Shown: positions 13,845 through 53,090 of the stretch, piece by piece
How positions within the stretch are numbered: the first letter of the stretch is position 1
Layout: every line of letters starts with the position of its first letter
Assembly (NCBI RefSeq): GCF_036785885.1
Contig: NC_092312.1
Span: forward strand, 20,416,001-20,480,000
Reading direction: 5' to 3'
Source of the DNA: Coffea arabica
Taxonomy: Eukaryota > Streptophyta > Magnoliopsida > Gentianales > Rubiaceae
DNA length: 64,000 bases
Translations under genes and position numbers: made by a program
Notes under the pieces: generated by a model
Database searches by the model: none
The model's input: the letters and a program-made list of their open reading frames with translations, nothing else
What the model was told of the DNA's origin: nothing

Positions 13845-14244
13845 ATTGCGCCATGACAATCACTGGTATAGAGACTTACTGCACTTGTGTTCTATGAAGC
13901 TTAGATTGCAAAATATTGATTCAAAGACTTCTCTCTTCTTTAGACAAATTATTATGCTTTTTATCTATTTGTATTAAGTTGATTTTCAACTCCATTATAG
14001 ATTAGATTTAGAAGGCTATTTTCATATTTTTGTGAATCATCGAGTTTGTGATCCAAACACCAAAAACTCCAAACCGACTGCAGAATCATGATTTTGAAAA
14101 TGTGAGCCTGGATATTCAAATTAAAAATGAAAATAAGGATCCGAATGTAAATAATTATACTTTGGTTTACTTTAATCACTTCTCTCATTACTAATCAAGC
14201 ACCTTTACACGCTTGCTCCTGCAGTTCACTCTCATCAGTGAAGG

Positions 14245-15156
14245 ATGAGCGCCCGCTACCCGACAACCATAACCCCGACCCAAACCCGAATAGGCTGGGT
14301 AGGCATAGGCGTGATGGGCTCCGCCATGGCCTCCCGCCTCCTCTCTGCGGGCTACTCCGTCACCGTCTATGACCGAACCCCGTCAAAGGCCGCCCCTCTC
14401 CAATCCAAAGGGGCCCATCTGGCTCCCTCCGTCGCCGACCTCGCCCGTGCAAGTGATGTCGTCTTCACGATGCTGGGACACCCATCAGATGTTCGACAAA
14501 TTGTGCTAGAGAACCTTGTTCCTTCTCTCAATCCCAATAGCGTTATTATTGATCACACTAGCAGCCACCCCACCCTGGCTAAGCAGATTTATGATTCTGC
14601 CCTTGAAAGACACTGCCACTCCGTTGACGCCCCAGTTTCCGGAGGCGACATCGGAGCGAGAGATGGCAAATTGGCGATATTAGCCGGGGGAGACGAGGAT
14701 GTTGTGAAGTGGTTAAAACCACTGTTTGATGAAATGGGGAGGGTGACTTATGTTGGCGGCCCTGGGAAGGGACAGCATTGTAAAATAGCGAATCAGATAA
14801 CCGCTGGGGCGAATTTACTTGGGCTGAGTGAAGGGCTGGTTTTCGCGGAGAAAGCCGGTTTGGACAAATTGAAGTTTGTGGAGGCTGTGAGAGGCGGTGC
14901 AGCTGGATCAATGGTGATGGAGTTGTTCGGGGACAGGATGATCAACAAGGACTTCAAGCCTGGCGGGGTCGCGGAATATATGGTGAAGGACTTGGGAATG
15001 GGAGTGGATGTTGGCGAAGAGGAAGGGGATGAAGTGGTGGTATTGCCTGGCGCTGCATTGACTAAACAATTGTTTGCTTCTATGGTGGCTAATGGGGGTG
15101 GGAAGCTGGGCACCCAGGGGCTAATATCTGTCATTGAGAAGATCAATGGCAGTTAA
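14245..15156 (+). CDS. 3-hydroxyisobutyrate dehydrogenase-like protein, copy A
   Basis: Intronless, 303 residues, of the beta-hydroxyacid dehydrogenase family. It is closest to the plant 3-hydroxyisobutyrate dehydrogenase-like proteins (At1g71170, At1g71180, At4g29120 group). The N-terminal Rossmann motif GIGVMG is at residues 20-25, the substrate-binding signature DAPVSGG at 128-134, and the catalytic lysine is Lys180 in GKGQHCKIANQ. Residue 43, at the end of the second beta strand where cofactor choice is usually set, is Asp (YDRTPSK). The family reduces or oxidises small beta-hydroxy acids with NAD(P); the true substrate is unknown. Only about 15 residues precede the Rossmann fold, so no long organelle targeting peptide is evident. 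Residue 242 is Val where copy B has Phe; Phe looks like the usual family residue. Just four nucleotides separate it by eye from copy B. Confidence 0.93.
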   Translation: MSARYPTTITPTQTRIGWVGIGVMGSAMASRLLSAGYSVTVYDRTPSKAAPLQSKGAHLAPSVADLARASDVVFTMLGHPSDVRQIVLENLVPSLNPNSVIIDHTSSHPTLAKQIYDSALERHCHSVDAPVSGGDIGARDGKLAILAGGDEDVVKWLKPLFDEMGRVTYVGGPGKGQHCKIANQITAGANLLGLSEGLVFAEKAGLDKLKFVEAVRGGAAGSMVMELFGDRMINKDFKPGGVAEYMVKDLGMGVDVGEEEGDEVVVLPGAALTKQLFASMVANGGGKLGTQGLISVIEKINGS

Positions 15157-16433
15157 GATAACAAAGTGAAATCATAGCCTCAAGCAAATATCAAGTTAAG
15201 ATAGCACACTAGACTAGCTGAGCTTGTTTATGTAATGTAATTTTAATCTAAACCTCTACAAGGGCTCACGTAGCTTTCGAGCTGGACGTGTTTTTTTTGT
15301 CAGCAACGAATCATTTGTATAACCTACTCTATCCTTATCTAGGGGAAGGGAGAGGGGGGGAAGGGGGAGGGGGAGCCTAAGGAGACTGTTGTAGGGACTA
15401 GTGGGTATATAGATCCAACTAGACCAAGGAAGTGCTGGACGTGTTGATGGCGTACAAACTGTAAAATAAAACTCGGAGAAGGGGAATATGTGACGGTTAA
15501 AATTAGCGATGTCTACGTGTTTGCTTTTCAGCTTATATCAGATTAAAGTCGAAGTAGTGAATTACAATTGGGTGGCAAGAGAAGTTCTCGAGGCTTTCAT
15601 TCATATTCTTCAACTCAGAAATTGATCAAACCCAAAAGAACTACCAGTTAAAAGCGCAAAAGAAAAAAAAATACCCACGGAATTACACTCCTCGATTATT
15701 TTGTAGTAGAATTATGGAAAAATGGAGTACTTCGACCCACAATTGAGGAAAAAAGAGATTTATTTTTATTGAGTTAGTTGAAGAAGGGTTGAATGTCAAA
15801 TGTGTACATCCAATTACCAAAAAAAAAAAAAAAAGAACCATCTCTTCAATTTGTTTTATATCTATATATATAACGAAAATTGGGACCCTGATGGGCATAA
15901 ACCCGTTAAATAAAAAATCTTACATGACTTAAATTTAACATAATAGAATGATCATCTTCACTCTTCAAACTTCAATACCTTTCTTTCTGACTCCAATTTT
16001 TGTTGAATTTGATTAATTTCTTGTTTGAAGATAAAATTGGTCAAAAAATTAATAGTTTAAATACTAAAAATCTTATACTAATAAGAATGAAATGCATCCA
16101 TGACCCAAAGTTAATTGGCCTTTTCCCCCATTTATTACTTTAGAAACCCCCTTACTTCACTCCTCAAGCTTATCTTTATTTCGTCATTTGAGATCTGACT
16201 GTTTTTGCCCTATTTCTTTTTTTTTTTCTTATCAGATAAAATTAATCTTTTTAGACGTGAACAAGTAGGTAAAAATATGATTAAAATCACATATGTCAAA
16301 AAACTTGATAATTAGATTTCGGAGAGAATAATTAAAGCAGATTACAGCAAATCAAATTAAGTGGCCTCCCAAAGTTCATTAGTCTTTAGATACTTGTATA
16401 TCTTTTTGTAACCTTTGAGGTAGAAGTCCTCAA
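15157..16433. other. 3' flank of copy A, no gene seen
   Basis: The first 41 bases after the stop are identical to copy B, then the two units diverge. Alignment resumes near 15640 at about 90 percent. The region contains G-rich GGGGAAGG runs near 15345-15375 and A tracts near 15820. No open frame of interest is seen. Confidence 0.6.
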
Positions 16434-16663
16434 AGGCTAGGAGTCCTAGCCACTGGCCCTTTGGCCTGGTGATCACTGCCAAACATTTAAGTCTTGGTAG
16501 TATTGGGAGATCAAGGATTCAACTCTTGCTTCCCATCAAATTGTCACTATAGGTGGCTGCTTTCAGTGACTTTCTCCGATGGAGTTTCTACTCTCATCGG
16601 CTCCTCCTCCTTAATTAAAATAGATTAGATTATAGAAATATTATCGTTGCGATTACAAAAAAA
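16434..16663 (+). mobile_element. SINE in duplication unit A
   Basis: About 230 bp with a B-box-like GGATTCAACTCTTG and an A-rich 3' end after TATTATCGTTGCGATTAC. It is flanked by a 16 bp target-site duplication with one mismatch: AGGTAGAAGTCCTCAA at 16418-16433 and AGGTAGGAGTCCTCAA at 16664-16679. The same insertion with the same flanks lies in unit B at 21647-21876, so it predates the segmental duplication. By eye the two copies differ at about ten positions, mostly transitions. Confidence 0.8.
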
Positions 16664-16694
16664 AGGTAGGAGTCCTCAAGTCCCAATTCTCAAC

Positions 16695-16850
16695 TCATTC
16701 CTTTGGAGGAACAAAATTTTTGCCCTTGCCAATCTTGGTGTTGAAAAGTTCCACCAGCCCCGGATCCACGTTGAAAGAAGCTTGTAGCACCGAGGGATCC
16801 ATTGCTTTCCAAACTGATGTTTCCCCAGCTAGCTCAGCAAAATATGGCCG
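16695..16850 (-). pseudogene. Orphan last exon of the cupin gene
   Basis: This is a near-perfect copy of the third exon of the cupin gene (21908-22061), encoding the C-terminal 51 residues from PYFAELAGETSVWKAM to GKGKNFVPPKE and the stop. No exons 1 or 2 lie upstream of it (to the right). Instead there is intron sequence, a Helitron and the second duplication unit. The splice acceptor dinucleotide is CG here instead of AG in the intact gene. It is therefore a truncated gene copy that cannot be spliced normally. The exon has only about one other difference from its source, while adjacent intron sequence has diverged clearly more. Confidence 0.9.
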
Positions 16851-16964
16851 GTAACAAACATACATAAATGATAGTAGTAAATAGTAAATAATAAGAATCT
16901 CCAACAATTACTCCCAGTAGTAAATAGTAAATAATAAGAATCTCCAACAATTACTCCTTTTTTT

Positions 16965-17117
16965 TTTAAATGAAAATAAGGATTGTGATTTTTTGCAGAA
17001 AAATTTTTATACTTCCTGTGAATACATTTCTTAATCACCTTTTTATCTCACATGTATCAAAATTGCTACAATACATTTTTCTTAAAAAAAAACTAAAAAT
17101 AAGAATCCAAACGGAAT
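16965..17117. repeat. Decayed MITE-like sequence (unit A copy)
   Basis: The stretch contains TTTTTATCTCACATGTATCAAAATTGCTACAATACATTTTT-like sequence and ends near AGAATCCAAACGG, resembling the MITE family seen at 13708 and 44341. A paralogous copy lies at about 22133-22283 in unit B. The left terminal repeat is not clear, so this may be partial. Confidence 0.45.
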
Positions 17118-17184
17118 TATTATCCTATCTTTTCTATTTCTGTGTTATAAATAATTATCTCCACTCCTTATAAATACTTTACAA

Positions 17185-19141
17185 CTAGCATTCTTACCCG
17201 TGCTATGCACAGATTTATATTTCAATTAAAAAGAATAATATATACTTATATATTATAGTATAGGATAAAATATATGAAAAAGGCAAAATAATTCAAAAAA
17301 GTGTATACTTAACATGTTAAAAAAAGTTTATTTCGTAAGTACAAAATGGACTTTCTTAATTTTAATATCTTAAATAAGTTAAAACCAAAATTTTTTACCT
17401 ATTGTCTGTCAATATATGATAACAATTTGAGTAAACTAATTTAATTTATAATGATTTACATGATAGAGCAATTGTAAACCTATTTATCAATATATCATGT
17501 TATACCCATATATCAAAATTTTTAATATTTAAAACATAAATTTTAACTAATTCATTTTCCTCAATTTTAGAATTTTTTTCTCCCATTTTATAATCCTAAA
17601 ATTGTTGAGTGCTTATAAAATACTGTTCTTCATAAACTTTAATATAGATTTTAAAAAAATCTTTGTAAGATGTGTTTTTAAAGTTTTCAAAATTATTAAA
17701 TACTATCACATTTTCCATCCTCTCTTATTTGCTAATTGGCTATCGATTGCTTTTTATAACTTTCAAATCTCTTACCACATTATCATCTTTTCTGTCATGT
17801 CTCTATAGTCCCCTTCTTTCTTCTCTTCTCTCTTCATCCAACCTCGTTGTAGTTCATCTTCTTTTTTCGTCATTCTTTAACTCCTTACTATATCTTTTTT
17901 TCCCCCATAGTTAGTCTCTAGCTTCCTATCCTTGATATCCAATATTTCTCTATTATTTATTCAAAGTATAACTTAACATATGTTTATGTTACACTACTAT
18001 AAAGTAAATTTCACTGGTAAAAACACCACATTTAGTTATTTTTCATATTAAATTTGAATTGAATAATTTCAAATTTTCAAAGAAGAAATATTGTCATTGA
18101 ATCTACATTCAACCTCCAAATTGAAGAGTTAAAATTTGAAAAAAAAAATTCCATAACTTGCAATTTGGTTTTACGATTTTAAAATATACTTATATTTGTA
18201 CTTTCAAAATAACTTTGAAAAGATAAAATTTGAAGCAAAAGAAAAAAAGAAAATCATAACCTTCAATTTGATTTAATATTTTTACAATATATTAACTTTA
18301 CCTCTCACAATATGAAAAGCATATAAAACTTAAGATTGATCACAATAGTTGCAAGTATTGACATTTAAAAATGCAAATGAAAAACTGATAATATCTTATA
18401 AAACCTTAACTACTACAAAAAAATATATAAAAATGACTTAACAATTGCATAGTTACATATGAAGAAAACAATAAAAATACATAAAATAATTAATCATACC
18501 CAAGATGATTCTTAGCATTTGGGTTTTGCACTGTTATTGATATTTAATTAAGGTCAAATTTGGATCAAATATATACAAATTTAATAGATACATAGTTTAG
18601 GGTCAAAAGTTCTATATGGTTTCTTTAAATTGCATTGTTATTTTTTTTTATTTTTGGTATAATTGGTGTTGTTTTTATTATTGTTTTTTATCAAAAATAG
18701 AGATTTCAAATAAAAATTTTCATGTTGAAATGCTAGTAGTACTTTGCTTTTTATTTAGTAATTTCATAATTTAGGGTTCACGAGTGATACCATTCTTGAT
18801 TTTTTTCGATCCATGACCAATGAATATTATTTTCTTTTTTGTTTTCTATATAATTTGTCTTTTTAGTTAGGATTACTAAGTTGAAGGATAAAATCTTGTT
18901 ATTTACTTTTTTACTTTGAGTAAGTTTAGTGATGTTTCCTTCTTATTTACCTCACATTAATAGATTTCAAATCAAATTCCTATATAAGTGGATCCACTTC
19001 TTACTTTTTAAATTCAAAAGACATAAAAGGATATATAACAATTAAAAAAAATTAAAATTCTATATAAAAAAAAAAAGAATAAGGAGTTAGAAGCATTCAG
19101 ATTTAATCATCCTAAAAACCCCTCCTACAATACATATAAGA
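17185..19141 (-). mobile_element. Non-autonomous Helitron, 1,957 bp, with paralogous empty site
   Basis: On the minus strand the element runs from TCTTATATG at 19141 to CTAG at 17185. It is inserted between a host A (17184) and T (19142), as Helitrons do. Just before its CTAG end is the hairpin CTGTGCATAGCACGG, typical of plant Helitron 3' ends. Unit B of the tandem duplication has the uninterrupted sequence CACAATTATTTCAAG at 22348-22362; the insertion point is A22352/T22353. This gives independent proof of both ends and of the lack of a target duplication. The interior is AT-rich and holds no Rep/helicase frame, so the element depends on other copies for movement. It inserted into unit A after the duplication, or was lost cleanly from B, which is unlikely. 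Confidence 0.92.
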
Positions 19142-19188
19142 TTATTTTAAGTCTTTGTCCAAAACTTTACGAGCAACTGTCACCTAAA

Positions 19189-19422
19189 TATGAAAGTAAT
19201 AAGCTAACCATTAGTGCTCGCCTTGTTTTGAGCACGAAAGAAGTTCAAATCTTCCTTCCATTTTCCTTTTAATCTTCATTTGCTCCTCGTACCTCAAATT
19301 GCAAAATATCAGAAACCTTCTGAAATTATCCCTAACTTTAATTTTTTCACCGACAAACTTAACATCTAAGCTAATTCACGAGAGAATCCCAAAAGGCACT
19401 AACTCCGATTGTTACCCCTAAC
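19189..19422. other. Spacer between the two duplication units
   Basis: These bases lie between the right end of unit A homology and the left end of unit B homology and match neither unit. They include the distal promoter of HIBADH-like copy B. The upstream DNA of the two genes is therefore unrelated beyond roughly 75 bases before the start codon, so their promoters may differ. Confidence 0.65.
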
Positions 19423-19496
19423 TTTAATCGCTTCTCTCATTACTGATCAAGCATCTTTACACACTTCCTCCTGCAGTTCACTCTCATTAGTGAAGG

Positions 19497-20408
19497 ATGA
19501 GCCCCCGCTACCCGACAACCATAACCCCGACCCAAACCCGAATAGGCTGGGTAGGCATAGGCGTGATGGGCTCCGCCATGGCCTCCCGCCTCCTCTCTGC
19601 GGGCTACTCCGTCACCGTCTATGCCCGAACCCCGTCAAAGGCCGCCCCTCTCCAATCCAAAGGGGCCCATCTGGCTCCCTCCGTCGCCGACCTCGCCCGT
19701 GCAAGTGATGTCGTCTTCACGATGCTGGGACACCCATCAGATGTTCGACAAATTGTGCTAGAGAACCTTGTTCCTTCTCTCAATCCCAATAGCGTTATTA
19801 TTGATCACACTAGCAGCCACCCCACCCTGGCTAAGCAGATTTATGATTCTGCCCTTGAAAGACACTGCCACTCCGTTGACGCCCCAGTTTCCGGAGGCGA
19901 CATCGGAGCGAGAGATGGCAAATTGGCGATATTAGCCGGGGGAGACGAGGATGTTGTGAAGTGGTTAAAACCACTGTTTGATGAAATGGGGAGGGTGACT
20001 TATGTTGGCGGCCCTGGGAAGGGACAGCATTGTAAAATAGCGAATCAGATAACCGCTGGGGCGAATTTACTTGGGCTGAGTGAAGGGCTGGTTTTCGCGG
20101 AGAAAGCCGGTTTGGACAAATTGAAGTTTGTGGAGGCTGTGAGAGGCGGTGCAGCTGGATCAATGGTGATGGAGTTGTTCGGGGACAGGATGATCAACAA
20201 GGACTTCAAGCCTGGTGGGTTCGCGGAATATATGGTGAAGGACTTGGGAATGGGAGTGGATGTTGGCGAAGAGGAAGGGGATGAAGTGGTGGTATTGCCT
20301 GGCGCTGCATTGACTAAACAATTGTTTGCTTCTATGGTGGCTAATGGGGGTGGGAAGCTGGGCACCCAGGGGCTAATATCTGTCATTGAGAAGATCAATG
20401 GCAGTTAA
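19497..20408 (+). CDS. 3-hydroxyisobutyrate dehydrogenase-like protein, copy B
   Basis: Intronless, 303 residues, with the same motifs as copy A: GIGVMG at 20-25, DAPVSGG at 128-134, Lys180. By eye it differs from copy A at four nucleotides, three of them changing residues: Ala3 to Pro, Asp43 to Ala and Val242 to Phe. Position 43 sits in the loop after the second beta strand of the Rossmann fold, where an acidic residue usually binds the adenosine ribose and favours NAD. Ala followed by Arg-Thr (YARTPSK) looks more permissive for NADP. The two copies may thus differ in cofactor use; this is inference. The near identity contrasts with several-percent divergence outside the coding region. Upstream DNA differs from copy A, so expression may differ as well. 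Confidence 0.93.
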   Translation: MSPRYPTTITPTQTRIGWVGIGVMGSAMASRLLSAGYSVTVYARTPSKAAPLQSKGAHLAPSVADLARASDVVFTMLGHPSDVRQIVLENLVPSLNPNSVIIDHTSSHPTLAKQIYDSALERHCHSVDAPVSGGDIGARDGKLAILAGGDEDVVKWLKPLFDEMGRVTYVGGPGKGQHCKIANQITAGANLLGLSEGLVFAEKAGLDKLKFVEAVRGGAAGSMVMELFGDRMINKDFKPGGFAEYMVKDLGMGVDVGEEEGDEVVVLPGAALTKQLFASMVANGGGKLGTQGLISVIEKINGS

Positions 20409-21646
20409 GATAACAAAGTGAAATCATAGCCTCAAGCAAATATCAAGTTGAGGTTCTGTTTTCCTGGATAGCACACTAGCTAAGCTTGAAATCAGCTTTT
20501 AAGTTCCTGTCTTCGATCATATATGATCAAGTACTTGCTTTTGCATCGATCATATATGATCAAGTACTTGCTTTTGCATTTGTAATTTAGTTGCATTCTT
20601 TATATTATACGTGATGCAGAATTCCTGGTAAAAAGAATTGGTGGATCTTAATTAGACGAATAAGGCCGACCTAGTATTGGTAAAAAACCAAGGCTGTGAC
20701 TTTTACTTGGTGTGTGTGTGTGTGTGTGTTTGGTTAAAGGATGTACCAATAGGACTAGAAAATCACAAGATATGTCTTGAGAGATACAAGGTCTAAGGAT
20801 GAAATATCAAAAAAATTTTCGTGCAACTGTTAATTTCTTTGCTTGTTCTCGATAACTTGTAGCACTACCGGTTAAAAGCGCAAAAGAAAAAAAAAAAAAC
20901 CCATGGAATTACACTCCTCGATCATTTTGTAGTAGAATTGAGGAAAAATGGAGTACTTCAACCCACAATTGAGGAACAAAGAGATTGACTTTGATTAAGT
21001 TAGTTGAAGAAGGGTTGAACGTCAAATGTGTACATCCAATTACCAAAAAAAAAAAAAGAACCACCTCTTCAATTTGTTTTATATTTATATATATAACAAA
21101 AATTGGGACCCTGACGAGCATAAACCCGTTAAATAAAAACCCTTACACTACTTAAAATTTAACATAATAGAACGACCATCTTTACTCTTCAAACTTCAAT
21201 ACCTTTCTTTTCGACTCCAATTTTTGTTGAATTTGATTAATTTGCTGTTTGAAGATGAAATTGATCAAAAAATTAATAGTTTAAATACTAAAAGGTTTAA
21301 GAATGAAAAAATTAGGAATAAAAATTGGCATTTTCCCCCATTTGTTACTTTGGAAGCCCTTTTACTTCACTCCTCGAGCTGCTCTTTGTTTCATCATTTG
21401 AGATCCGACTGTTTTTGCCCTATTTCTTTTTTTTTTTTCCCTTGTTGGGTAAAATTAATTTTTTTAGACGTGAACAAGTAGGTAAAAATATGATTAAAAG
21501 TACGTATGTCAAAAAACTTGACAATTAGATTTCGGAGAGAATAATTAAAGCAGATTACAACAAATCAACTTAAATGGCCTCCCAAAGTTCATTAGTCTTT
21601 AGATACTTGTATATCTTTTTGTAGCCTTTGAGGTAGAAATCCTCAA
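20409..21646. other. 3' flank of copy B, no gene seen
   Basis: After about 40 bases shared with copy A, the sequence differs. It includes a 33 bp tandem repeat (20514-20579) and a TG microsatellite (about 20712-20730), both absent from unit A. Alignment with unit A resumes near 20860. No gene is supported. Confidence 0.6.
20514..20579. repeat. Two-copy 33 bp tandem repeat
   Basis: CGATCATATATGATCAAG followed by TACTTGCTTTTGCAT occurs twice in immediate succession, each copy with the internal palindrome ATCATATATGAT. It lies in the 3' flank of HIBADH-like copy B and not in that of copy A, so it arose after the duplication or was lost there. Confidence 0.85.
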
Positions 21647-21876
21647 AGGCTAGGAGTCCTAGCCACCGGCCCTCTGGCCTGGTGATCACTGCCAAACATT
21701 TAAGTCTTGGTAGTGTTGGGAGGTCAAGGATTCAACTCTTGCTTCCCACCAAATTGTCACTATAGGTGGCTGCTTTCAGTGACTTTCTTCGATGGAGTTT
21801 CTACTCTCATCGGCTCCCCCTCCTTAATTAAAATAGATTAAATTATAAAAATATTATCGTTGCGATTAAAAAAAAA
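21647..21876 (+). mobile_element. SINE in duplication unit B
   Basis: Paralogous to the SINE at 16434-16663, with matching target duplications AGGTAGAAATCCTCAA (21631-21646) and AGGTAGGAGTCCTCAA (21877-21892). The same insertion in both units shows that it was present before the segment was duplicated. Confidence 0.8.
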
Positions 21877-21907
21877 AGGTAGGAGTCCTCAAGTCCCAAT
21901 TCTCAAC

Positions 21908-23585
21908 TCATTCCTTTGGAGGAACAAAATTTTTGCCCTTGCCAATCTTGGTGTTGAAAAGTTCCACCAGCCCCGGATCCACGTTGAAAGAAGCTTGTAG
22001 CACCGAGGGATCCATTGCTTTCCAAACTGATGTTTCCCCAGCTAGCTCGGCAAAATATGGCCTGTAACAAACATACATAAATGATAGTAGTAAATAGTAA
22101 ATAATAAGAATCTCCAACAATTACTCTTTTTTTTTTAATGAAAATAAGAATTGTGATTTTAAGTAGAAAAATTTTTACGCTTTCCATGAATATATTTCTT
22201 AATCGTTTTTTTTTATTTCACATGTATTAAGTTGCTACAGTATATTTTTTTTATAAAAAAATTAAAAATAAGAATCCAAACGGAATTATTATCCTATCTT
22301 TTTATTTCTGCGTTATATATAATTATCTCCACCCCTTATAAATACCTCACAATTATTTCAAGTCTTTGTCCATAACTTTACGGGCAATTATCACCTAACC
22401 AGTGTTCATTTGAGAAAGATGCACGTTCAAAAGTCGGTAAGATGTGAAAAATCTTTTAGAAATTGTATCAATCAGCAAGAAGAAGAAAACTGTAAATCTT
22501 CAAGATAAAAAAAAAAAAAAAAACTTACTCTAACGATGTGACGACACAGAAATACTCCAATCCTTCCTCATCCGCAATCTTGGCAACAGGGAGGAACTTA
22601 GGCACGACGCATAACTGCCCGCTCTGCACTTTGGCTACCAATGCATTCTTACCATCCAATCCCGCGATTTCAACAACGCCGCTGCCTTTGGTGATAAAAA
22701 TCAATTGGAAGGATGCATCGGCGGCATACATCGGGGTTGACATGGAGAACGGATCCAATCTCGCAAAATTAGCACTTAGTCCCACTTTCTTCAGAAAAGG
22801 AAAATTTTCAGCAGTAGCAATGGTAAGTGATCCGCCCTGATTCACGTGGATGCTGGGCTTTGCGCTTTCAAAGTTGTATAACATATTGATGTTAGCATCT
22901 TTGCATGGATCTGGCAACGTTTGATTCTTTGCAAGTTTGACAATCAAAGAACCAGTTTGACTTTTAAGGAGCTGGTCTGATTCATCTTGGGTGAGATCGA
23001 AAGCTCTAGTGATAAAGTCAGTCGAGAAACCCCCAAGAACACCCCGGACTCCTGCCAAGAAGAAATAGTCAAACTGGGCAGGAGTATAAGATTGAGCAGT
23101 TACACCCAAGAATACTATTTCCACGTCAGAGTTGTCTTCCCCGGCATTATACCACCACGAGACTGAACCCAAAGGCACCGGGATTGCATCTCCCTTCTTA
23201 GCAGCTAAAACAACTTCTTTTGGGCTGTTTGGTAGTACGATTCCAACCCTACCGCTACCTGCAGTTAATACATACATAGTGCATAAAAAATAATAATATA
23301 TATAGGCCCTAATCCAAGGATGGCCAGAATGAAATGAAAAAAGAGCTATATTTAGTTCATGCGCGCAGTTCTGCGTTTACCTTGAACAAAGTAACCGATC
23401 TTGTGGCAGTCAGCATAATGGGGTAGAGCGAAACCCCGAGGACGCAAGACAAGCTTACCAGCACCTAACTTAGCCTCACTCAGCAAGGGAAACAGGGAAG
23501 CTGACCAAGTGTAGTATCCACCGCCTTCTCCCTCGAAGATAGTTACATCAGTAAACTGGGGTGCTAAGTTAAACTGGGATGCCAT
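21908..23585 (-). CDS. Legumin-like bicupin protein (At1g07750/At2g28680 type)
   Basis: Three exons on the minus strand: 23585-23381, 23258-22529 and 22061-21908, giving about 362 residues. Both introns are GT-AG and the phases fit. The protein has two RmlC-type cupin barrels like 11S seed globulins. The N-terminal barrel includes GFALPHYADCHKIGYFVQGSG and PLGSVSWWYNAGED; the second includes FQLIFITKGSGVVEIAG and CVVPKFLPVAKIADEEG. There is no signal peptide (MASQFNLAPQFTDVTIFEG), unlike true seed storage globulins, so it should be cytosolic or otherwise non-secreted. Length and domain order match the Arabidopsis pair At1g07750/At2g28680, whose function is not well defined. Exon 3 was copied into the upstream duplication unit as an orphan exon. 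The start is the first ATG of exon 1. Confidence 0.9.
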
Positions 23586-47614: not shown

Positions 47615-47856
47615 CCAATCTGATTTGAGAAATACTAATTAACTCAATAATAGATAGAGAAATATTTTTATTTATCTTTAAGATTGTACATAAGTAGCAA
47701 AATTTGAACTATTGAAAGGTTATTAAAAATCTATTGATATGAATTGTATCTCTTAATATAAGATGGAAATGTGAATACTTTCCATACTCAAAGTCCACAT
47801 GGCAACAAGTAGGTTAACAAGGGAATATATTTTGAAAGTGCATTAGTTTGGGAATA

Positions 47857-48840
47857 TGTTGACATTGGTCGATCAATCCTTGGTTTTGATGATTAACAAA
47901 CCAAAATGTAGATTTGGGCTAATATTTTTATGTGAGTAATTTGTTAGAACAGATTCTTGTGGCATAAAAGAAGAAGCAAAAACAGGGCACTCATGTCGGA
48001 CGCTATCGGACGTCCGAAAGGATGAAGAACATCAAGAAGGAAACTCTGTCGGACGCTCGTGAGGAAGCATCGGACGTCCGGAAGGATCGGACGCACGCCT
48101 CGGACGCACATCGATCGCATCGGACGTCCGAGAAATTTCGCAAATATTTGATGACTCTCTGCCTACGTTCGGACGCAGGGTTCGGACGTCCGACAGGTGG
48201 TTCGGACGTCCGACAGGCACCTGTCGGACGTCCGACAGGCCAACGGCTAGTTTTGACAGCAATTAATATTTGACCGTTGGAGAGTCTTTTGGAGTCATTT
48301 CTCACCTTCTATAAAAACCCCAAAGCACAAGAAGACTAGAGACTTTTGCCAACACAAAATACAAGCTTACAAGTGAGATTTTTGAGTAGAAAGATTCTTT
48401 GTTGGTTGTATAAGGGGTTGGGAAAGTTGGGTTGTGAGGTTGCTCAAGTGAAGGTTATTCTCTAAGAGGAGTAAAACCTTGGTGAAGGTGAACCTATCAC
48501 TTGAAGTGGTAAAACCTTGGTGAAGGTTGCCTCATTTGTGTAAAATAGTTCTTAATTTGGTGAGTGATCTTTCAAGTGTAGGTTGTTGAGGGTTAACTAG
48601 AATAGTTGTAAAACTCCTTGGCTCAACCAAAGTGTGTTTGGGGTGAGGAAGGAGTGAACCTTCACTTGTACATCTTAGTTAGCATCGCCATCAATTGAAG
48701 AGGCTATTGGATTGATATTTGGTTTGCATTTCTTATCTTTTCTCTTTAATTAAGTTTTCTTTATTGTGCTTAAATTTGATATATCTTTGTGCATTATTGT
48801 GAAATTGTTTGTACTCATTGGGTTGCACCGGGAACTTACA
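47857..48840 (+). repeat. LTR 1 (outer left)
   Basis: 984 bp, starting TG and ending CA. A TATA-like TATAAAAA is at 48310-48317. Upstream of it (47998-48240) lies a cluster of CGGACGTCCG palindromes. It is followed by a primer-binding region and preceded by the GAATA target duplication. Confidence 0.92.
47998..48240. promoter_or_regulatory. Array of CGGACGTCCG palindromes in the LTR
   Basis: Six copies of the 10 bp palindrome CGGACGTCCG and about five half-sites CGGACGC lie within 243 bases, in an otherwise AT-rich LTR. The last three are the tightest (about 20 bases apart, each followed by ACAGG). They sit about 70-310 bases before the TATA-like box, so in the presumed U3 promoter region. 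GACGTC is the C-box core bound by plant bZIP factors; binding here is inference. Matching arrays occur in the other two LTRs near 49447-49689 and 52247-52489. Confidence 0.7.
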
Positions 48841-49305
48841 ATTGGTATCAGAGATTGGTCTCTTTTGATCAAGCTTAACCGCTTAGAGTAAAGATCATGG
48901 CAACCATAAAAGTTTCTTTTTTAGAAGGGCAATCTATTGATAGACCACCTATGTTTAATGGTTCTCATTTTAGCATGTGGAAACAAAGAATGATGATTTT
49001 CTTACAATTGGTGGTATGTGGTAGAAGATGGTCCTTATGAAACTAGAATAGTTGACTCCACCACCAATCTGATTTGAGAAATACTAATTAACTCAATAAT
49101 AGATAGAGAAATATTTTTATTTATCTTTAAGATTGTACATAAGTAGCAAAATTTGAACTATTGAAAGGTTATTAAAAATCTATTGATATGAATTGTATCT
49201 CTTAATATAAGATGGAAATGTGAATACTTTCCATACTCAAAGTCCACATGGCAACAAGTAGGTTAACAAGGGAATATATTTTGAAAGTGCATTAGTTTGG
49301 GAATA

Positions 49306-50289
49306 TGTTGACCTTGGTCGATCAATCCTTGGTTTTGATGATTAACAAACCAAAATGTAGTTTTGGGCTAATATTTTTATGTGAGTAATTTGTTAGAACA
49401 GATTCTTGTGGCATAAAAGAAGAAGCAAAAACAGGGCACTCATGTCGGACGCTATCGGACGTCCGAAAGGATGAAAAACATCAAGAAGGAAACTCTGTCG
49501 GACGCTCGTGAGGAAGCATCGGACGTCCGGAAGGATCGGACGCACGCCTCGGACGCACATCGATCGCATCGGACGTCCGAGAAATTTCGCAAAGATTTGA
49601 TGACTCTCTGCCTACGTTCGGACGCAGGGTTCGGACGTCCGACAGGTGGTTCGGACGTCCGACAGGCACCTGTCGGACGTCCGACAGGCCAACGGCTAGT
49701 TTTGACAGCAATTAATATTTGACCGTTGGAGAGTCTTTTGGAGCCATTTCTCACCTTCTATAAAAACCCCAAAGCACAAGAAGACTAGAGACTTTTGCCA
49801 ACACAAAATACAAGCTTACAAGTGAGATTTTTGAGTAGAAAGATTCTTTGTTGGTTGTATAAGGGGTTGGGAAAGTTGGGTTGTGAGGTTGCTCAAGTGA
49901 AGGTTATTCTCTAAGAGGAGTAAAACCTTGGTGAAGGTGAACCTATCACTTGAAGTGGTAAAACCTTGGTGAAGGTTGCCTCATTTGTGTAAAATAGTTC
50001 TTAATTGGGTGAGTGATCTTTCAAGTGTAGGTTGTTGAGGGTTAACTAGAATAGTTGTAAAACTCCTTGGCTCAACCAAAGTGTGTTTGGGGTGAGGAAG
50101 GAGTGAACCTTCACTTGTACATCTTAGTTAGCATCGCCATCAATTGAAGAGGCTATTGGATTGATATTTGGTTTGCATTTCTTATCTTTTCTCTTTAATT
50201 AAGTTTTCTTTATTGTGCTTAAATTTGATATATCTTTGTGCATTATTGTGAAATTGTTTGTACTCATTGGGTTACACCGGGAACTTACA
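49306..50289 (+). repeat. LTR 2 (internal, from the tandem duplication)
   Basis: A 984 bp copy offset by exactly 1,449 bases from LTR 1. It lies inside the element and is followed by the primer-binding site that leads into the gag region. It is preceded by a second copy of the host flank including GAATA, which shows its origin by duplication, not by a separate insertion. Confidence 0.92.
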
Positions 50290-50346
50290 ATTGGTATCAG
50301 AGCTTGGTCTCTTTTGATCAAGGTTAACCGCTTAGAGTAAAGATCA

Positions 50347-51861
50347 TGGCAACCATAAAAGTTTCTTTTTTAGAAAGACAATCTATTGATAGACCACCTA
50401 TGTTTAATGGTTCTCATTTTAGCATGTGGAAACAAAGAATGATGATTTTCTTACAATTGGTGGTATGTGGTAGAAGATGGTCCTTATGAAACTAGAATAG
50501 TTGACTCCACCACCAATTTGAGTAGATTAAAGACTAGACAAGAATTGAATGAAAAAGACAAGAGATACCTTTCTTTGAATGCCAAGGCCATGTGTATATT
50601 GTACAATACATTAGATGTAAATGAATCTAATAGGATTAAAGGTTGTAAATCTGCTAAAGATATTTGGGATAAATTGTGTGTATTTCATGAAGGTAACCAA
50701 GAGTTTAAAGAACAAAAGAAATCTTTGCTTGTTTCTCAATATGAATTTTTCAAAATGCATTCTCTTGAAAATGTTGATAAGATGTGTAGTAGATTTTGTG
50801 ACATTATTGAAGATCTTAAATTGCTTGGAAAAAAATATTCTTTGGGTGAGAAAAATAGAAAGATTTTGAATGCCTTGCCAAAAGAATGGGAAAACAAAAT
50901 AAATACTATAGAAGAGGCAAAGGATTTAAATTCTATGTCCATTGAATCTCTTGTGAATTCCCTAACCTCTTATGAATTAAAACTGAAACTCAAAGTGCAA
51001 GAGGAAGAAAATGCAAGAATGTATATGAGAGGCATAGCTTTTAAAGCATCTCAAGTGGGGGATAACCCATCCTTCATGGGTAATGAAATCATGGAAGTGG
51101 ACAATGATATAACTCCTCACATCAAAAGTTTCAAGAAGATCTTCAACAAGAGATGTTCAAGAGGAGATTGCAAAGTTACATGGGATGAATGCAATTCAAA
51201 AAGAGAAAAAGAAGAGTTGGCCCAAATAGCACTAATGGCCGTTGGAGAAGATGAGGTAAGTTCTTATCACTCTTCTTGTGATGAAGATAATGAAGATGAT
51301 GATGTGAAAATTCTTATGATTAAAATGCATAAAAGTTTGAGAAAATCTTATGCTAAAAATAAAGATTTGAAAACAAAAATAAATGATTTGTTGGAAGAAA
51401 ACTCCAAACTTTTTCAAGAAAACAAATGTTTGAGAATGGAAAATGATGATTTAAAAAATCAAAAAAATGTTTTGAAAAGGAAGTTGGAAGAGACAACAAA
51501 GTTTTATGAAAAAATGTTGGAAGAACAAAATTTGTTAAAGAAAAGAATTAATGACTTGAACGAGTTTTTCCAAAATGAAAAACAAAAGTTTTCTCAAACA
51601 AAAGAAAGCAAATCTTTTCAAGGCACAAATAAGTTTGTTATGATAAGAAGTAAGAAAATTAGTTGCATTAAATCCACCTATGTGCAAAATACTTCTATCA
51701 TGTGTCACTTTTGTTGCAAATTTGGACATATGCAAAATGATTGTTATGTAAAGAAAAATATGAGAAAAGGAATGAAATTCATGTGGATTGCTAGATCATG
51801 TCGTATTAACTCCCAAGGACCCTATAAAGAAAGGGTACCAAATGAAATTTCTCATATTTAG
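50347..51861 (+). mobile_element. gag-like region of the copia element (fossil)
   Basis: The predicted product has a copia-type gag polypeptide domain (motifs NAKAMCILYNTLD, SAKDIWDKLCVFHEG, LNALPKEWENKINTIEEAKD). A long Lys/Glu-rich coiled coil follows, then a CCHC zinc knuckle (CHFCCKFGHMQNDC). This is the nucleocapsid-like protein that packages element RNA. The region stands alone, without downstream pol domains, and is treated as a fossil. Confidence 0.85.
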
Positions 51862-51949
51862 GTACATCATGAAGATTTGATCCAAGTAGTGCTATATGGT
51901 TGTAAGTACATTTGAAAATTTTGATATTCAATATGGTCTTGATTTGAAA

Positions 51950-52105
51950 AATAAAGGGGGAGTTTGTTTTTGATTGATGCCAAAAGGGGGAGTAGGATTT
52001 ATTGAAATTTCTTTGTATGTTGGCACTTTCTAAGGGGGAGCTTTATTTGAACTTATTTGATAAAAGAAATCTTCATTTTGTTTGTCATCATCAAAAAGGG
52101 GGAGA
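51950..52105 (+). other. Multiple polypurine tracts before LTR 3
   Basis: Four AAGGGGGAG-type tracts occur within about 150 bases; the last (AAAAAGGGGGAGAT) directly precedes LTR 3 and should be the plus-strand primer site. Repeated tracts of this kind are known from SIRE-type copia elements. Confidence 0.75.
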
Positions 52106-52106
52106 T

Positions 52107-53090
52107 TGTTGACCTTGGTCGATCAATCCTTGGTTTTGATGATTAACAAACCAAAATGTAGATTTGGGCTAATATTTTTATGTGAGTAATTTGTTAGAAC
52201 AGATTCTTGTGGCATAAAAGAAGAAGCAAAAACAGGGCACTCATGTCGGACGCTATCGGACGTCCGAAAGGATGAAAAACATCAAGAAGGAAACTCTGTC
52301 GGACGCTCGTGAGGAAGCATCGGACGTCCGGAAGGATCGGACGCACGCCTCGGACGCACATCGATTGCATCGGACGTCCGAGAAATTTCGCAAAGATTTG
52401 ATGACTCTCTGCTTACTTTCGGACGCAGGGTTCGGACGTCCGACAGGTGGTTCGGACGTCCGACAGGCACCTGTCGGACGTCCGACAGGCCAACGGCTAG
52501 TTTTGACAGCAATTAATATTTGACCGTTGGAGAGTCTTTTGGAGTCATTTCTCACCTTCTATAAAAACCCCAAAGCACAAGAAGACTAGAGACTTTTGCC
52601 AACACAAAATACAAGCTTACAAGTGAGATTTTTGAGTAGAAAGATTCTTTGTTGGTTGTATAAGGGGTTGGGAAAGTTGGGTTGTGAGGTTGCTCAAGTG
52701 AAGGTTATTCTCTAAGAGGAGTAAAACCTTGGTGAAGGTGAACCTATCACTTGAAGTGGTAAAACCTTGGTGAAGGTTGCCTCATTTGTGTAAAATAGTT
52801 CTTAATTGGGTGAGTGATCTTTCAAGTGTAGGTTGTTGAGGGTTAACTAGAATAGTTGTAAAACTCCTTGACTCAACCAAAGTGTGTTTGGGGTGAGGAA
52901 GGAGTGAACCTTCACTTGTACATCTTAGTTAGCATCGCCATCAATTGAAGAGGCTATTGGATTGATATTTGGTTTGCATTTCTTATCTTTTCTCTTTAAT
53001 TAAGTTTTCTTTATTGTGCTTAAATTTGATATATTTTTGTGCATTATTGTGAAATTGTTTGTACTCATTGGGTTGCACCGGGAACTTACA
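52107..53090 (+). repeat. LTR 3 (outer right)
   Basis: 984 bp, starting TGTTGACC and ending ACTTACA, followed by the right target duplication GAATA. It differs from LTR 1 and LTR 2 by roughly one percent, by eye. Confidence 0.92.

Follow-up and report, generated by a model that had tools for sequence, protein, structure and literature searches.

A non-autonomous Helitron of 1,957 bp lies in one unit (A) of a tandem duplication in Coffea arabica, and the other unit (B) carries the corresponding empty site. The DNA analysed, hereafter the window, is a stretch of 64,000 nucleotides (C3:20416001-20480000), and positions given without a chromosome refer to it. We consider it highly probable (about 0.93) that the element was moved by rolling-circle transposition into an AT site of unit A after the duplication and before the two subgenomes separated. 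C3 and C4 are most probably homoeologues of C. arabica and are treated as such throughout. Among PDB entries, the best match to carboxyl methyltransferase exons of this genome is geniposidic acid O-methyltransferase, an enzyme of Gardenia, which is likewise a member of the Rubiaceae.

The Helitron and the empty site in unit B

The duplication, its genes and the element comprise the following features.

14169..19190, plus strand: duplication unit A in the window (window self-BLAST, C4 comparison, four-way alignment)
19421..22400, plus strand: duplication unit B, without the Helitron (window self-BLAST, four-way alignment)
14242..15153, plus strand: 3-hydroxyisobutyrate-dehydrogenase-like gene, unit A (Pfam PF03446, 6e-49; PF14833, 3.8e-27)
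19494..20405, plus strand: 3-hydroxyisobutyrate-dehydrogenase-like gene, unit B
17185..19141, minus strand: non-autonomous Helitron, 1,957 bp (read directly; empty site in unit B)
19141 and 17185, minus-strand sense: Helitron ends, 5' TC at 19141 and 3' CTAG at 17185
17198..17212, minus strand: 3'-terminal hairpin with a 6-bp stem and a loop of 3 bases; the stem lies 13 bases from the end of the element
17184..17185: left junction, A17184/C17185, at the element 3' end (alignment alone allows a 1-bp shift)
19141..19142: right junction, A19141/T19142, at the element 5' end
22352..22353, no strand: empty site A/T in unit B, flanked by the last exon of one cupin and by the cupin frame next upstream

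Both units hold a dehydrogenase gene and a duplicate of a cupin gene's final exon. The two dehydrogenases on C3 are identical at 301 of 304 residues. In unit B on C3 the cupin exon reads to a stop and follows the frame 22528-23376 (Cupin_1). The unit A copy, which together with the dehydrogenase gene and the Helitron makes up the contents of that unit, is degenerate, having lost its AG splice acceptor on C3 and acquired a frameshift on C4. Comparison with C4 reveals that the ancestral unit extended at least to 13846. Elsewhere in the window, 47615-53090 contains near-identical repeats of approximately 1.0-1.5 kb (98.8-99.2%; 47615-49086 versus 49064-50536, and 52107-53090).

In minus-strand orientation, the element runs TCTTATATG...CTAG between an A (complement of T19142) and a T (complement of A17184), with termini that start TCTTATATGTATTG and end GTGCATAGCACGGGTAAGAATGCTAG. 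The 5' terminus is TC, as it is in the C4 copy, and the CTAG of the window copy conforms to the CTRR expected at a 3' terminus. A hairpin is present near the 3' end; it is modest in the window copy (-3.3 kcal/mol, z -1.48; single-strand DNA fold of 17185-17225, minus strand), 21 of 200 shuffles folding equally well, and a typed, family-like 3' end folds better (z -3.24, same DNA fold). There are no terminal inverted repeats, in-register agreement between the start and the reverse complement of the end being 2/10, 3/20 and 5/30. The longest stop-free frame inside the element is 85 aa, and a Pfam scan of its two longest frames gave no match. The coordinates, TC start, CTAG end and hairpin proposed in an earlier sequence-only reading of this DNA are therefore borne out, the hairpin being no more than modest. 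The element is an ordinary non-autonomous Helitron, which we take to belong to the canonical class, type name HLE1.

Unit B runs uninterrupted at A22352/T22353. When joined, the unit A flanks reproduce the continuous sequence of unit B and differ from it by substitutions alone across approximately 80 bases around the site, and so there is no target-site duplication; small indels appear in the wider A/B alignment. The window copy is thus inserted between A and T without duplication of the target, and alignment with unit B upholds the empty site at A22352/T22353 and the A/T insertion point claimed previously. The description of this site as 'base-exact' holds once the CTAG/T rule of the family (below) is applied. 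By alignment alone it does not, since A17184 is identical to A19141 and 17184-19140 is also permitted, a 1-bp ambiguity; it is the family rule that fixes the junction. Judging from splice-like bases rather than transcripts, the empty site probably lies within a cupin intron. A distance of 353 bases separates the right end of the Helitron from the point at which the stop-to-stop frame of the unit B dehydrogenase begins. A literature search found no paper joining Helitron related empty sites with paralogous copies.

The four-way alignment (A and B on C3 and C4, with the Helitron omitted from A) is unbroken across the junction. A-versus-B differences flank the site on both sides, at 19 of 301 columns in 16836-17184 and 6 of 48 in 19142-19190, which argues that the empty site in unit B is not the product of conversion by an A-type donor. 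The same columns bear on the possibility that the Helitron predated the duplication and was then precisely lost from unit B in an ancestor that the two subgenomes share. The divergence of the element from its relatives would fit such a history too, and the SINE pattern described below suggests that sequence has been exchanged between the units. However, B has the exact A^T on both chromosomes, with no remnant of the element, and both flanks of the site are B-type, so that precise loss would need an empty donor allele that was itself B-type. To our knowledge, Helitrons do not as a rule leave a clean site behind. For maize, one putative somatic Helitron excision is described (PMC2267711). We regard precise loss from unit B as very unlikely, and insertion into unit A after the duplication is the preferred reading.

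Filled and empty sites on C4

The main collinear pieces of C4:20434001-20460000 align to the window at approximately 94-99%. The Helitron is again present in unit A (C4:20443588-20446478) and absent from unit B; the C3 and C4 copies are 97.3% identical, and the 5' end at the homoeologous site starts TCTATATG. A genome search with 22060-22460 listed 41 matches, with 40 of 764 candidates scored. The two B sites gave one match each and the two A sites three, which extend as far as the Helitron, one site being split; the remaining 36 were to a dispersed repeat inside the query. This repeat, of approximately 140 bp, is found at 16976-17114 and 22146-22283, in both units on both chromosomes. Four relatives were aligned, and those that are better preserved have inverted ends (GTTTGGATTG/CAATCCAAAC), which is MITE-like.

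By parsimony, the pattern of filled and empty sites on C3 and C4 indicates that the Helitron is younger than the duplication and older than the C3/C4 split. The earlier proposal that insertion followed duplication is accordingly the most likely order, the same presence and absence recurring at the homoeologous locus. Since one genome provides a pair of paralogous empty sites and a pair of orthologous filled ones, this is a well-controlled Helitron insertion, and the locus should be useful for calibrating both Helitron end annotation and the age of the family in this genome. On C4 the Helitron itself holds an insert of approximately 0.9 kb (C4:20444420-20445338), with TGT at its start, ACA at its end and AAAGT flanking it on either side; this insert is solo-LTR-like and later than the Helitron.

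The C3-C4 distance is 0.027 for the Helitron, 0.023 for non-coding unit A and 0.030 for unit B. The element thus matches its flanks, in agreement with insertion before the split. The A-B distance is 0.063-0.072 in 15700-17184, which includes the conversion tract described below and so understates A-B divergence, and 0.090-0.123 over the whole aligned unit, including the badly aligned 15161-15660. The Robusta-Eugenioides split is placed at 4-6 million years (PMC11018527). Simple scaling of the lower A-B figures would date the duplication to 9-16 million years, as a very rough estimate.

In a FastTree phylogeny the stem is 0.049 and the tips are 0.015-0.027; the tips sum to 0.043, more than the direct C3-C4 distance of 0.027, as the query-anchored alignment inflates branch lengths. 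The stem, which measures divergence from the nearest relatives, does not by itself prove insertion after the duplication, and stem and tips together set bounds on the age. Strictly private Helitron sites number 14 common to C3 and C4, 11 confined to C3 and 10 confined to C4, counts that are compatible with insertion after the duplication and are no proof of it.

The SINE-like insert and exchange between the units

A second insert distinguishes the units.

16434..16663, plus strand: SINE-like insert, unit A, with a terminal A-rich run and 16-bp direct repeats at 16418-16433 and 16664-16679
21647..21876, plus strand: SINE-like insert, unit B on C3, probably derived from unit A by gene conversion

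The insert has no Rfam or tRNA match; it is called SINE-like for its flanking repeats, A-rich terminus and dispersal, rather than through a family match. A genome search with it listed 41 matches (40 of 379 candidates scored), of which three are at this locus and its homoeologue and the other 38 lie elsewhere, at 73-86% identity. The sequence-only reading mentioned a SINE and gave no coordinates for it; we take 16434-16663 to be the insert meant. The repeat at 16976-17114 and 22146-22283 was also considered for this role, and was set aside on account of its MITE-like inverted ends.

Both A units carry the insert, as does B on C3; B on C4 has no insert and retains the 16-bp flanking repeat once. 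An insert older than the duplication would be expected to show A-versus-B sites within and beside it, like those of the neighbouring sequence. Around the insert (16348-16835, insert excluded), none of 242 columns is an A-versus-B site, whereas the flanks have 52 among 954 (Fisher p 9.6e-6); columns private to B on C4 number 9 of 242 compared with 5 of 954 (p 3.8e-4); both p-values are optimistic, since the limits of the stretch were chosen from the data. When columns were shuffled, a run of 242 without an A-versus-B site arose in 7 of 20,000 shuffles, a procedure that ignores the slower change of coding bases, part of 16348-16835 being cupin exon. The lack of A-versus-B sites and the rarity of equivalent runs among the shuffles make the insert in B on C3 look like a copy from A. 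Pairwise differences within the insert number 10 between the two C3 copies, 15 between the two A copies and 13 for A on C4 versus B on C3, so that in distances the three copies are near a three-way star. At only four positions is B separated from both A copies.

These patterns suggest that on C3, shortly after the lineages separated, unit A converted unit B and copied the SINE-like insert into it. The Helitron site lies outside this tract, A-versus-B differences resuming on either side of the site. On C3, signs of conversion are seen in two places, 16348-16835 with about 21561-22048 in unit B, and the dehydrogenase exon (14242-15153 and 19494-20405). In this exon, A and B on C3 are 99.56% identical, A on C3 and A on C4 98.68%, and A and B on C4 98.03%; the C3 exon is therefore closer between units than between homoeologues, a trend that C4 does not show.

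Alternatively, the SINE-like insert could have been present before the duplication and been lost from B on C4 by recombination between the 16-bp flanks. It is present in three of four units, the 16-bp repeats could support a precise deletion, and constraint on the old cupin exon that forms part of the stretch could have kept A and B alike. An ancestral insert sits poorly with the C3 copies in A and B, which differ at fewer positions than the two A copies do, and with the mere four positions that set B apart. It also sits poorly with the surrounding columns, where A-versus-B sites are lacking and nine changes are private to B on C4. We consider an ancestral insert rather unlikely. With B on C4 lacking the insert, and given the conversion pattern on C3, the order put forward previously, in which SINE insertion preceded segment duplication, was not sustained. 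More generally, presence in both paralogues does not date an insertion before their duplication, since conversion can copy the insert.

On the preferred reading, parsimony would place the tandem duplication first. The SINE-like insert and the Helitron would then have entered unit A, in either order, before the two subgenome lineages separated. After that separation, conversion of B by A on C3 would have brought in the SINE, in a tract that stopped before the Helitron, and the Helitron on C4 would have received the solo-LTR-like insertion. The conversion tract ends near 16836, approximately 350 bp before the Helitron insertion point, and sequence beside the Helitron retains its A/B differences. 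As a 2-kb stretch found in one tandem paralogue only, the Helitron might limit gene conversion between the units, which at this locus we think quite improbable; if true, a one-sided transposon would contribute to fixing divergence between young duplicates.

The Helitron family and the search for an autonomous partner

A BLAST search of the genome with the Helitron gave at least 84 matches (40 of 651 candidates scored). With up to three mismatches, its 26-base 3' end occurs 222 times and its 28-base 5' end 441 times, compared with none for either reversed control, which excludes chance. Other copies with the same ends, which it had been proposed to seek in the genome, therefore form a dispersed family. 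Pairing of 100 listed 5' and 100 listed 3' ends on the same strand within 30 kb produced 16 end-to-end pairs, 14 of which measure 1.1-2.9 kb.

Family ends were compared in 25 sequences, including the window copy and its C4 homoeologue, with an alignment-score cut-off of 52 for the 3' end. Among the 22 that score at least 52, CTAG is present in 14, some of which are homoeologous pairs and not all independent, and the next base is T in all 14. The eight without CTAG are L007, L008, L013, L017, L019, L021, L022 and L023. The poorly aligned L015, L016 and L020 were left out of this count; in L015 and L016, CTAG is followed by A and was taken as a chance internal match. The 5' end is variable, 10 of the 25 sequences having an additional TCTATA ahead of the aligned start. 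Different termini on other copies had been named as evidence that would count against the element as delimited. The variation seen touches on this point, but 14 of the 22 keep CTAG and the longer 5' ends also start on a TC, so that the element as delimited is not contradicted.

These data also bear on whether the insertion is something other than a Helitron, for example a MITE or a retrotransposon fragment. The lack of coding capacity found in the element and the weak hairpin of the window copy would be in keeping with this. Against it are the absence of terminal inverted repeats (5/30 bases) and of a target duplication, together with the TC/CTAG ends, the AT target and a 3' hairpin motif that is common across the family. 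Another class of insertion is thus extremely unlikely, and the termini, target and dispersed family support the Helitron identity first assigned from sequence.

Canonical Helitrons of maize and rice have a 5' TC, a 3' CTAG and a short palindrome near the 3' end, are flanked by A and T without target duplication, and include many non-autonomous copies (PMC2267711, PMC2575219). The coffee element resembles them in all these respects. It differs from the canonical maize and rice elements in a 5' end with a variable-length TCTATA-type repeat and in that no captured gene fragment was recognised (two frames against Pfam). It is also like bat Helibat1/Helraiser in its TC/CTAG ends, 3' hairpin and insertion between A and T (PMC4778049); Helraiser encodes a RepHel protein, whereas the coffee element encodes nothing recognisable.

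A Rep/helicase from an autonomous Helitron, whose location elsewhere in the genome we infer, presumably mobilised the element. The 5' TC end would have been nicked and one strand copied or peeled as far as the 3' hairpin and CTAG, and the copy joined into the AT dinucleotide of unit A without duplication of the target bases. The Rep domain Helitron_like_N has at least 150 matches in the genome (150 of 763 candidates scored), which suggests that suitable enzymes are, or formerly were, present. A Rep/helicase relative had been suggested earlier; in a search by the Rep domain, confined to the Rep matches and ends listed, none of the 150 could be linked to these ends and no autonomous element bearing them was found. 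When the 150 were set against 100 listed ends of each kind (5' and 3'), a single pair came within 30 kb; its 5' end is 19.5 kb downstream of Rep, which does not fit. A variant 3' end found in 85 places, compared by eye with the Rep matches, gave no fitting pair, and at 20 Rep loci, examined with 1.5 kb of flanking sequence, similarity to the ends was at shuffle level.

Among the longer end-to-end candidates, three (L057, L065 and L066) yielded no Rep. L057 (C8:17558801-17567000) holds an L1-like LINE (four frames scanned), L065 has no frame above 173 aa and no Pfam match in five frames of at least 120 aa, and L066 has no frame of 120 aa; none was retained as a partner. L057 and L065 resemble the Helitron mainly in the terminal 90 and 35 bases, approximately, and their interiors differ. 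L057 is an element bounded by family ends and split by the LINE, which has reverse transcriptase and zf-RVT domains.

Searches with the flanks of L028 and L026 found homoeologous or amplified copies and gave no clean empty site for these other family copies. The C4 counterpart examined for L028 (L068) and the three recurrences examined for L026 (L072-L074) also contain the element; L069 and L070 belong to a tandem array and align with just one of the flanks. The L026 flank recurs many times in C15:34733665-35554470 and C16:27013154-27753274, on both homoeologues. In L008 and L013, a homoeologous pair, and in L023, the 3' end directly abuts the apparent 5' end of another family member, in a head-to-tail arrangement.
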